The notes under the pieces were generated by a model. The model did not search any database and was not told where the DNA came from. It saw only the letters and a program-made list of their open reading frames with translations. 64,000 bases of DNA from Amycolatopsis pretoriensis (lineage in GTDB: Bacteria > Actinomycetota > Actinomycetes > Mycobacteriales > Pseudonocardiaceae): the NCBI RefSeq assembly GCF_900107925.1, contig NZ_FNUJ01000002.1, positions 310,001 through 374,000 on the forward strand, in the 5' to 3' direction. The position numbers and the translations under genes are program-made. This document shows positions 42,494-45,123 of this stretch, piece after piece; positions within the stretch are counted from its first letter, which is position 1; every line of letters begins with the position of its first letter.

Positions 42494-42846
42494 CGAGCCC
42501 GTTCTCGACCTCGACCGAACCCGCGGAGACGGGCCCGATCCTGACCGTCCGGGGCGAACTCGACGTCGCGACCGCCCCGCGGCTGCGCACCGGGATCGGG
42601 GACCTGGTGCTGGCGGCCGGGCAGCTGCTCGTGGTCGACCTGGCCGGGGTGACGTTCTGCGACTCCAGCGGGATCTCGGCGCTGATCGCGGCGCGCAACG
42701 CCGCCGAGGCGGCCGAGGCGTCGATCGCCCTGGTCGCCGTGCCGGCCCGGCTCACCAGGACGTTCGCGCTGACGGGGTTGTCGGACTTCTTCCCGACCTA
42801 CGCGACGGCCGAGGAGGCCATCCGTCAGAGGCAGGGCGGCCGGTAG
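42490..42846 (+). CDS. STAS-domain anti-sigma factor antagonist (RsbV-like)
   Basis: 118 residues; ATGA overlap with the phosphatase. The single STAS domain contains LTVRGELDVATAPRL and FCDSSGISAL, whose Ser59/Ser60 would be phosphorylated by an anti-sigma kinase and dephosphorylated by the phosphatase upstream. No anti-sigma kinase or sigma factor follows, so partners are encoded elsewhere. The 3' end overlaps the converging secreted-protein gene by 22 nt. Confidence 0.92.
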   Translation: MTSPFSTSTEPAETGPILTVRGELDVATAPRLRTGIGDLVLAAGQLLVVDLAGVTFCDSSGISALIAARNAAEAAEASIALVAVPARLTRTFALTGLSDFFPTYATAEEAIRQRQGGR

Positions 42847-43427
42847 CCGTCGACGCGCAGGCCGCGGAACTCGAGCCGGTTCGGGGTCTTGCCGACGAAG
42901 ACGAGGCCGCGGGCCTCGGTGAGCGCCGACGCGAAGGAATACGTGGGCGTCCCGAGTTCGGGCAGTGACGTCCACGCCCGGGGCCGGAAGCTGAAGAACC
43001 TCGTGACGAGTTTCCCGTGGGTGGACGGCACGAGGGTGAGCCACTTGTCGCCGCCGCTCCAGTGCGAAGCGGGACGCAGCTGGACGTAGAGGTCGTCGGA
43101 CGCGCGGTAGGTCAGCCGGAAGCCCGCCGAACGCGAGAGGTCGGCCTGCGCCTCGAACTGGTTCCCGAGCCACAGCACGGCCACGTGCCACTCGGCGTTC
43201 CGGAAGTCGATCTTCGCCGTGTACCGGTGTCCTTCGCGGACAAGAAGGTTCCCGGTGGCCGGGACGGTGGTGCCCTCACCGCTGGCGAGCCACTGCTGGT
43301 ACCGGTCGATCGACGGCGTCGAGCACTCGCAATTCGCGGGTGGTGACGCGTTCGCGACGGGGGTGACCAGCGAAAACAGGAGGAGGGATGCGATGACCGC
43401 GAGCGTCCGGGCGAAGGCGAGGCGCAT
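42825..43427 (-). CDS. secreted protein of unknown function
   Basis: 200 residues with a Sec signal peptide ending near residue 28 (ANASPP). The mature protein begins with a Cys pair (CEC near 33) and ends PPCL, so a disulfide may link the termini. Its middle is beta-rich with several aromatic strands (WHVAVLWLGNQFEAQADL, RASDDLYVQLRPASHWSGG), suggesting a jelly-roll or binding fold. A 7-5-7 inverted repeat AGCACAC/GTGTGCT lies 12 nt before its ATG. No family is recognised. Confidence 0.75.
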   Translation of the reverse strand: MRLAFARTLAVIASLLLFSLVTPVANASPPANCECSTPSIDRYQQWLASGEGTTVPATGNLLVREGHRYTAKIDFRNAEWHVAVLWLGNQFEAQADLSRSAGFRLTYRASDDLYVQLRPASHWSGGDKWLTLVPSTHGKLVTRFFSFRPRAWTSLPELGTPTYSFASALTEARGLVFVGKTPNRLEFRGLRVDGYRPPCL

Positions 43428-43438
43428 GCGGGGAAGCT

Positions 43439-43457
43439 AGCACACCGGATGTGTGCT
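43439..43457. promoter_or_regulatory. inverted repeat in divergent leader
   Basis: AGCACAC-CGGAT-GTGTGCT is a perfect 7-5-7 inverted repeat between the secreted-protein gene (minus) and the small peptide ORF (plus). It lies 12 nt before the former and about 70 nt before the latter, so it could control either. The binding protein is unknown. Confidence 0.4.
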
Positions 43458-43528
43458 GTGTCACGGAATGCGCGCCGATCTTGGGCGCTACACAGGGGTA
43501 GGAACCGATCCAACCCCAGAGGAGGGCC

Positions 43529-43690
43529 ATGTCCGCCACCACCACGCCGGCCGAAACGCCGGTGGTCCCGGTGCTCGACGACTTCGACTTCGACCTCACC
43601 GACGGTGCGGCCTGCCGGATCGACGACCCGGACTGCGAAGCCTGCCAGTCAGCTTGGCGTCCCCGGTGCGGGCGGTTCCGCACCGGGGAC
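43529..43690 (+). CDS. small acidic Cys-containing peptide ORF without stop before terminator (possible RiPP precursor)
   Basis: The ATG at 43529 follows a strong GAGGAGGG site by 4 nt. The peptide begins with a Thr/Pro-rich stretch, then DDFDFDLTDGAACRIDDPDC and EACQSA. The FDFDL motif in an acidic leader followed by Cys/Ser recalls FxLD-type lanthipeptide precursors, but the match is loose. No stop codon occurs in this frame before the 13-bp terminator stem (43659-43690), and the frame stays open antisense through the next gene. No modification enzyme is nearby. The end given is the terminator end; the real 3' boundary is unknown. Confidence 0.4.
43659..43690. terminator. strong bidirectional hairpin terminator
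   Basis: GTCCCCGGTGCGG and CCGCACCGGGGAC form a perfect 13-bp stem around the loop GCGGTT. It lies 25 nt beyond the stop of the minus-strand PPOX gene and within the open frame of the plus-strand peptide ORF. Confidence 0.75.
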
Positions 43691-44175: not shown

Positions 44176-45123
44176 TCACGTCTCCGGCAGCGCGAAGACC
44201 TCTTCCACCGAATACCGACGTGGGGACAGGCCTTGTTCGTGGTGGTACCGCAAGTACGTCTCCAAAACGACACGATTGGCTGAAATCCCGTACGGCCACC
44301 ACTCCGCGCCGAACTGGGCCTCGTTGCGCTCGACCAGTGCGTTCACCCACGGCACCATCGTCGGCACCTGGTAGAGCCGGCGGTCGCGCCGGTAGCGGTC
44401 CGCGGCCGACGCCGCCGCCGCCGAGAACAGCCGGTAGACCTCGTCCGCGCGGTCCAGCAGCTCGCGGCGGATCACCACCGCGTGCATGATCGGGAAGATC
44501 CCCGTGCGCCGGTGGTAGTCCCGCTCGATCGGCTCGAAATCGGGGAAGAGGCGGACCACGTCCGGGGCGCCGTCCAGCACGCACTGCGGGACGTTCGCCG
44601 AGAACAAGGCATCGATCTCGCCCGTGGCCAGCAGGTCGCCGAGTGCCCGGCCGGACGCCGTCACCGGCACGCCGGCCGGGTGCGGGTGCGGGATGAACCC
44701 GAACGGCGCCGCCGGCCGGTCCAGCCCGCCGACCACCCACCGGTTGCGCGCGGGCTCGAAACCGTGCTCGTCCATCAGGATCCCCTTGGCCCACACGCCG
44801 GAGTCCTGCCCGTACGTGCCGAACTCGCCGATCGTCCGGTCCACGAGATCGGCCGGCCTGGTGATCCCGGAGCGCCGGTTGACGAAGACGCACGAGTGCC
44901 GGAACACGCGGTTGGGGAAGATCGGCAGCGCGACGTAAGGCAGGCCGGACTCCAGCAGCCGCAAGTAGAACGTCAGCCCGAGTTCGGCGACGTCGAACTC
45001 GTGGCCGCGGATCGTCCGTTCGAAGATCTCCGGCAGCGTGTCCGCCGTTTTCACCGTGACGTCGCTCCGGTCGAAGAGCGGCTGTGTCGTGTCGTACCGG
45101 TAGCACCCGATCGTGAGAGTCAT
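44176..45123 (-). CDS. 4,5-dihydroxyphthalate decarboxylase-like (Pht5-type) protein
   Basis: 315 residues from the ATG at 45123, no signal peptide. The fold is a periplasmic-binding-protein-like bilobal domain used by Pht5 enzymes: LTIGCYRYDTTQPLFD at the start, FDVAELGLTFYL near 65, LPIFPNRVFRHSCVFVNRRS near 85 and FPIMHAVVIRRELLDR near 220. Members decarboxylate 4,5-dihydroxyphthalate or related substrates; some may be binding proteins. A divergent LysR gene with an intervening box indicates substrate-induced control. Confidence 0.82.
   Translation of the reverse strand: MTLTIGCYRYDTTQPLFDRSDVTVKTADTLPEIFERTIRGHEFDVAELGLTFYLRLLESGLPYVALPIFPNRVFRHSCVFVNRRSGITRPADLVDRTIGEFGTYGQDSGVWAKGILMDEHGFEPARNRWVVGGLDRPAAPFGFIPHPHPAGVPVTASGRALGDLLATGEIDALFSANVPQCVLDGAPDVVRLFPDFEPIERDYHRRTGIFPIMHAVVIRRELLDRADEVYRLFSAAAASAADRYRRDRRLYQVPTMVPWVNALVERNEAQFGAEWWPYGISANRVVLETYLRYHHEQGLSPRRYSVEEVFALPET

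Follow-up and report, generated by a model that had tools for sequence, protein, structure and literature searches.

In class I ribonucleotide reductases (RNRs), the flexible C-terminal tail bears two cysteines that re-reduce the active site and are in turn reduced by thioredoxin or glutaredoxin (PMC4520616, PMC5704485, PMC9669993). RNR tails pass electrons between subunits, and in one split class II enzyme the tail domain sits on a second chain (PMC5704485, PMC4520616). In a class II enzyme the tails cross between subunits (PMC5704485), RNR tails can serve the neighboring subunit (PMC5704485, PMC3618301), and NrdJb of Pseudomonas aeruginosa performs thiol-disulfide exchange as a separate chain (PMC4520616). 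Here, we report a locus of Amycolatopsis pretoriensis that is very probably a free-standing gene for the tail of a class I large subunit (NrdA), its stop codon lost in this one genome.

The window (the whole stretch of DNA analyzed) was 64,000 nucleotides long (assembly GCF_900107925.1, contig NZ_FNUJ01000002.1, positions 310,001 to 374,000, forward strand), and positions below are counted from its first letter. The features at the locus were as follows.

42825..43427, minus strand: divergent neighbor, predicted secreted protein, no Pfam match
43451..43464, plus strand: GTG(N6)GTCAC element, inverted-repeat-like, that overlaps the promoter at its upstream edge
43465..43470, plus strand: -35-like element GGAATG (core pattern in 71/71 orthologs; column conservation)
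43487..43492, plus strand: -10-like element GCTACA (core pattern in 71/71 orthologs)
43519..43526, plus strand: ribosome-binding site GAGGAGGG, 2 nt 5' of the ATG (sequence read)
43529..43648, plus strand: free-standing NrdA-tail peptide, 40 codons, MSATTTPAETPVVPVLDDFDFDLTDGAACRIDDPDCEACQ (orthologs in 71/80 genus genomes; last 15 residues those of the genome's own NrdA)
43649..43651, plus strand: TCA replacing the stop codon present in 70/71 orthologs (ortholog comparison; alignment with DNA of seven relatives)
43659..43690, plus strand: 13-bp hairpin, probable transcription terminator (sequence read), reached by the open frame in the window genome
43718..44140, minus strand: convergent neighbor, pyridoxamine 5'-phosphate oxidase-like (PF01243, 33.7 bits; cut-off, 28.1)

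The frame starts at the ATG at 43529 on the plus strand (sequence read and list of open reading frames [ORFs]), and its translation contains both the FDFDL stretch and the C-RIDDPD-C-EA-C arrangement pointed out in the original prediction. That prediction was right to see a genuine peptide gene here behind a strong ribosome-binding site, as sequence, conservation, and selection bear out; the site GAGGAGGG stands, and its spacing to the ORF is 2 nt, not the 4 nt given. Translated in the window genome, it gives MSATTTPAETPVVPVLDDFDFDLTDGAACRIDDPDCEACQ and then continues as SAWRPRCGRF... up to 44374. As had also been claimed, no frame has a stop before the hairpin; all three frames from 43529 are stop-free across it and end at 44374, 44489, and 43947 (ORF list). 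The hairpin itself proved as perfect as described, with arms at 43659-43671 and 43678-43690 forming a 13-bp stem around a 6-nt loop, and a T run 3' of it was absent (sequence read). Three open frames over 130 nt are unremarkable alone at 72% G+C; the peptide ORF rises above chance because it is conserved in 71 of 80 genus genomes, has a promoter core, and is under purifying selection. The 75 nt 3' of the stop in the 71 orthologs folded with a mean of -43.0 kcal/mol, versus -27.9 kcal/mol for 400 random segments of the fetched loci, a control drawn without matching for coding status.

A stop directly follows CEACQ in 70 of 71 orthologs (TGA in 36, TAA in 25, TAG in 9), and the window genome alone has TCA there, at a position where its nearest syntenic relative (G245) reads TGA. 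The window DNA aligns with that of seven relatives across this position. Because 70 of 71 orthologs have the stop and the flanking DNA aligns, the missing stop is, by this comparison, a one-codon lesion or a sequencing error in one genome and not the design of the gene. A non-stop design conserved across the genus was thereby ruled out, as was a deletion of the 3' end of a precursor gene, which the original prediction had offered as its alternative, since only one codon differs. The same alignment, which had been proposed there as the way to find an intact stop, thus supplied one, and the peptide, whose lack of conservation in relatives would have spoken against the gene, recurs in 71 of 80 genomes. 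If TCA is not a sequencing error, the window genome probably carries an impaired gene, in which a message ending at the hairpin would have no stop and its product would, we infer, be tagged by tmRNA or extended. Rescue by tmRNA is possible, since the genome has a tmRNA (128.4 bits). Elsewhere, one ortholog (L077, G370:C54:12306-12434) has an in-frame TAG near the peptide start, downstream of which a TTG or GTG could restart translation.

The first clue to the identity of the peptide was a weak NCBIfam match to NF005544, an RNR alpha model (E = 0.019), at its extreme C terminus (model positions 948-965 of 965). All 16 relatives scanned (E up to 1) weakly matched the C terminus of the same model (best E = 0.0024), which, apart from one stray, was their only NCBIfam match. 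When 60 whole genomes were searched, most relatives had two sites, one short and free-standing and one ending a frame of ~1,000 aa. In the window genome the long copy is NrdA (1,656.7 bits on NF005544; cut-off, 965), with NrdB-like sequence 3' of nrdA (judged by eye); of the solved proteins, P. aeruginosa NrdA (5im3), carrying ACSIDNPDCEACQ, is the closest to it. The C terminus of this NrdA is CRIDDPDCEACQ, and its last 15 residues, GAACRIDDPDCEACQ, are identical to those of the peptide. Identity over the last 15 residues holds in 25 of the 30 genomes compared, the remaining five differing at 1-2 residues. Peptide residues 16-40 match the NrdA C terminus; the likeness extends upstream of the last 15 residues (DFDFDLTDGAAC versus DVDFVATEGAAC) and, in Amycolatopsis NrdA, reaches beyond the cysteines into a DxDF segment.

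The peptide is encoded by a separate ORF of ~40 codons with its own promoter core (71/71) and without an attached NrdA catalytic barrel. It lies outside the nrd operon (peptide on contig C23, nrdA on C27, and nrdJ on C11 in the window genome), and in the loci read the mini-gene was never found inside an nrd operon. Peptide gene and own nrdA differ by a mean of 2.6 of 45 nt, with 0 of 30 pairs identical; there was therefore no recent copying from nrdA, and gene conversion was rejected. A tail serving a tail-less RNR was ruled out for the window genome, in which both RNRs have cysteine ends of their own: NrdA, and the class II NrdJ, whose cysteine-rich end is of another kind.

Two side observations concern these genes. 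The codons TGC GAA GCC TGC CAG (43650 region) did not vary synonymously among 34 distinct peptide genes or in the nrdA ends listed, and GAA was invariant although GAG is usual in such DNA, perhaps avoiding an internal ribosome-binding-site-like sequence. In the following frames, each long and open (1,394-1,736 aa), the match to the NrdJ barrel falls into two parts, split at model position 390/391 in a way that looks like an intein.

G013:C1:5429051-5431948: split NrdJ frame
G345:C1:1965012-1967909: split NrdJ frame
G020:C1:964748-968713: split NrdJ frame

An acidic leader-like N terminus, the FDFDL stretch, and clustered cysteines had suggested a precursor of a ribosomally synthesized peptide (RiPP) loosely like the FxLD lanthipeptides, intact or decayed, or else something new. 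The peptide has no match to the FxLD model (NCBIfam E up to 10), nor do the 16 relatives (E up to 1); the NrdA tail accounts for it, and a genuine FxLD precursor of the window genome lies elsewhere (L247, G000:C28:69624-69734; 52.4 bits; cut-off, 30). Among three neighboring proteins scanned, there were no LanB/LanC/methyltransferase-type or other modification enzymes. With no model match and the genuine precursor at another locus, we rejected the RiPP/FxLD reading as very improbable, and of the three options raised only "something new" survived.

The peptide retains what such a role requires, since it has all three cysteines, ends exactly at Q, and includes the DxDF segment; we therefore tentatively prefer, by analogy with the systems above, a soluble redox tail that would act in trans on the RNR/thioredoxin relay as a helper. 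The peptide would be a diffusible dithiol tail, kept under selection beside an intact NrdA; thioredoxin or a comparable donor would reduce its CxxC, which would pass electrons in trans to the oxidized NrdA active site (or to the donor's other clients), so supporting dNTP synthesis when the mini-gene's own promoter is active. We infer redox activity, partner, and direction of effect alike. Against a helper stands the fact that NrdA ends in a tail of its own both in the 30 genomes compared and in the peptide-less genomes read, so that a second tail is needless for catalysis.

A genus-wide search found the mini-gene in 71 of 80 Amycolatopsis genomes. The nine without it all have NrdA, which also weighs against a helper; seven show the NrdA match alone, and two (G013 and G345) gave no match at the threshold used, their NrdA carrying PAACRIDDPDCEACQ without the DxDF segment. 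All 71 mini-gene genomes have a second NrdA-tail match, ending a frame of at least 976 aa in 70 and lying at a contig end in one (G351). Among the best 80 of 410 loci were 34 free-standing copies, all in records titled Amycolatopsis, and the promoter check failed in none of the 34. All 37 matches outside the genus in a partial family sample (297 genomes) lay in frames of at least 689 aa, the 3 read being NrdA ends, and a partial sample of the phylum (396 genomes) gave six matches beyond the window genome, all in frames of 826-1,009 aa. When mapped on an NrdA tree with 41 rows (9 without the peptide, 30 with it, and 2 outside), absence corresponded to 5 changes, at least 4 of them forced by well-supported branches. 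Because absence is scattered over this tree, the simplest reading is an old gene with several losses; gains are conceivable too.

In 62 distinct ends, the Cys and Pro residues and the CEACQ end were invariant, with the three Cys at fixed spacing, and pN/pS (uncorrected proportions) was 0.16 for 26 codons together, 0.33 for the leading 11, and 0.029 for the final 15. By these ratios, the last 15 codons are under strong purifying selection. Three invariant cysteines at fixed spacing would also suit a regulatory or metal ligand, in which C-x6-C-x2-C binds zinc or an iron-sulfur cluster and the peptide is the partner of a regulator or a protein-recruitment tag, and the tail does serve as a C-terminal tag on different phage proteins (below). 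We consider this improbable: the equivalent NrdA cysteines belong to the known redox pair region (PMC9669993), and the closest solved relative, 5im3, has ACSIDNPDCEACQ.

The promoter core, G[GA]AATN-N16/17-GCT(ACA or GAA), was found in 71/71 orthologs, with a spacer of 16 in 69 and 17 in 2. In shape, it resembles an ECF-sigma promoter; the SigR consensus does not fit the -10 element. GTG(N6)GNCAC stands at the upstream edge of the core in 70/71 orthologs, and the window's GTG(N6)GTCAC presumably resembles the Streptomyces Crp-site consensus. In 9 of 71 genomes the ATG is at most 10 nt from the -10 element, as in leaderless messages and as expected if transcription started at the ATG there. Across 30 genomes, 13/13 exact matches to the promoter pattern, and one with a mismatch, adjoined the mini-gene; elsewhere in these genomes the pattern gave 28 matches versus 41 for a reversed control, and therefore no wider regulon was seen. 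The mini-gene promoter was absent at nrdA in the four genomes checked, with no sign of co-regulation there, and this, together with the absence of linkage to nrdA, argues against a helper or any simple RNR partner.

The divergent secreted-protein gene was recognizable beside the mini-gene in four other genomes (G009, G030, G035, and G245) among 50 loci compared (some genomes represented twice); the other window neighbors were hardly recognizable there, and flanks vary. No RNA family was found in the window at gathering thresholds. Upstream of nrdA, four genomes (L021, L022, L023, and L024) share a conserved leader with CTACATGTAG, and the two of these loci scanned (L021 and L022) had no Rfam family upstream of nrdA. 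For these two loci, control of nrdA by a cobalamin riboswitch was rejected, the sole such match lying elsewhere in L022 (3614-3807, minus strand).

IMG/VR contigs scanned for the tail followed by a stop yielded 70 distinct stretches, which by upstream frame were 29 NrdA, 34 MazG-like proteins of ~154 aa, 2 cut off (their ends resembling the MazG-like ones), and 5 contigs with small proteins.

L279, L289, L293, L298, L299, L303, L285, and 27 among L309-L340: MazG-like tail loci
L307 (37 aa), L339 (55 aa), L286 = L292 (77 aa), and L316 (94-96 aa): phage small proteins, four kinds
L307, 3478-3516, minus strand: 37-aa phage ORF, preceded by a portal-like gene and followed by a tRNA cluster

One MazG-like representative matched PF03819 (42.4 bits; cut-off, 22), the others being judged by eye and many near-identical; the MazG-like tails follow the pattern C-x-I-[DE]-D-P-[DE]-C-E-S-C-Q. 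Several of the phage proteins have in common an acidic-hydrophobic segment before the cysteines, and the 37-aa peptide shares 72% identity with an Amycolatopsis peptide over 25 residues. A further short ORF (L271) ends in CSIDDPDCEACGS. An RNR large subunit was found in 0 of 15 records (possibly fragments) with the tail on non-NrdA proteins, and both NrdA-bearing controls were positive. Against isolate phages, a MazG query matched 431 records, none reaching the tail among the 40 matches listed, and the 77-aa protein had no match. Short tail queries found solely the annotated nrdA of an Acinetobacter phage in the phage set and, in 12 plasmid records, RNR alpha where annotated (3/12 had no annotation under the match). 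Matches to phrog_9555 (53 aa, unknown function) by a consensus-like peptide (E = 0.038) and a phage small protein (E = 0.017), both at the profile C terminus, were too weak to make it a named home for the tail, and the profile had no match in the window genome at E up to 1.

From the phage MazG-like and small proteins, the NrdA tail looks like a portable module. Its composite is an acidic-hydrophobic segment plus C-x-[IL]-[DE]-[DN]-P-[DE]-C-E-[AS]-C-[Q], borne in cells by the Amycolatopsis mini-protein and in phages by MazG-like and free-standing small proteins. That cells and phages use it apart from RNR as a redox or docking module, plugging in trans into the RNR/thioredoxin relay and tuning dNTP supply, is conceivable but doubtful. 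The 0/15 phage tail records (fragments) with an RNR large subunit point to a target other than a co-encoded RNR and so count against a helper. They fit a small redox carrier or thioredoxin-system client in which a borrowed NrdA tail would serve for docking and as the dithiol, without any action on RNR, for example as a stress-induced dithiol buffer or sensor, as do the tail on unrelated phage proteins (MazG-like and small), the separate promoter, and the lack of linkage to nrd genes. Such a client is nevertheless unlikely: the likeness to Amycolatopsis NrdA does not stop at the cysteines but takes in the DxDF segment, and the peptide was found solely in genomes with this NrdA (71/71), though all genus genomes read have NrdA.

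The helper that we prefer has two further points against it, namely the in-frame TAG near the peptide start in G370 and the fact that an inhibitor would show equal conservation. A free tail that acted as a brake, displacing the tail of NrdA itself from the active-site cleft or from thioredoxin by competition and so lowering dNTP synthesis under stress, would fit conservation, selection, and NrdA identity equally well, and phages with the tail on other proteins and no RNR detected could be interfering with factors of the host. There are small, disordered inhibitors of RNR, and yeast Sml1 competes with the RNR tail. Sml1 binds and inhibits Rnr1 (PMC6275026), and free RNR C-terminal domains can poison RNR, the PA domain of UN-24 forming complexes with yeast Rnr1p and being toxic (PMC3618301). 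A pure competitor, however, would not need all redox cysteines, yet all three are invariant in the 62 distinct ends, and we regard competition as rather unlikely. We thus rank the helper first, the competitor second, the redox client third, and the metal-binding or recruiting tag fourth.

If the helper reading is true, the electron supply to DNA-precursor synthesis would be adjustable by a soluble peptide. That MazG-like and small proteins of phages bear the tail as well suggests viral use of it. In annotation, it is easy to overlook such peptides or to take them for RiPP precursors. A full-text literature search of partial coverage returned no description of a free-standing NrdA-tail gene, and as far as searched, a genus-wide gene for a 40-residue class I NrdA tail beside an intact NrdA is undescribed.

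Among known systems, FxLD precursors (TIGR04363) share with the peptide a short ORF, an acidic N-terminal part, an F-x-L-D-like stretch, and clustered Cys near the end; the peptide differs in having no match to their model, and the true member of this genome is at another locus. Sml1 of yeast and the UN-24 domain of Neurospora are small or C-terminal polypeptides acting in trans on the RNR large subunit, which they inhibit or poison (PMC6275026, PMC3618301), whereas the peptide is a candidate for a helper or brake role. Both are eukaryotic, compared here for their action rather than their sequence, and have 104 residues (Sml1) and 135 residues (UN-24 PA domain). The phage MazG-like and small proteins have C-x-[IL]-[DE]-[DN]-P-[DE]-C-E-[AS]-C at or near the C terminus, often after an acidic-hydrophobic segment; they differ in coming from environmental contigs and in being mostly fused to a MazG-like domain, and what links them to the Amycolatopsis peptide is the tail. 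Class I NrdA tails (NF005544/PRK07207; 5im3) have the C-x-I-D-[DN]-P-D-C-E-A-C-Q C terminus of the peptide, and Amycolatopsis NrdA also has the preceding DxDF and T-[DE]-G-A-A segment; unlike them, the peptide is the product of a separate ~40-codon gene with its own promoter and a terminator-like hairpin, and NrdA still has its tail as well. Like the peptide, P. aeruginosa NrdJb, which belongs to a split class II RNR, is a separate chain with RNR C-terminal cysteines (PMC4520616). NrdJb folds as a cysteine-rich domain; its gene is part of the nrdJab operon, and NrdJa, which is without such a domain, requires it (PMC4520616, PMC9669993). A split RNR has a catalytic chain that is without a cysteine tail and depends on a second chain, whereas here NrdA ends in CRIDDPDCEACQ and NrdJ has a cysteine-rich end; unlike NrdJb, the peptide consists of a short linear tail without linkage to nrd genes and is encoded beside a complete NrdA.
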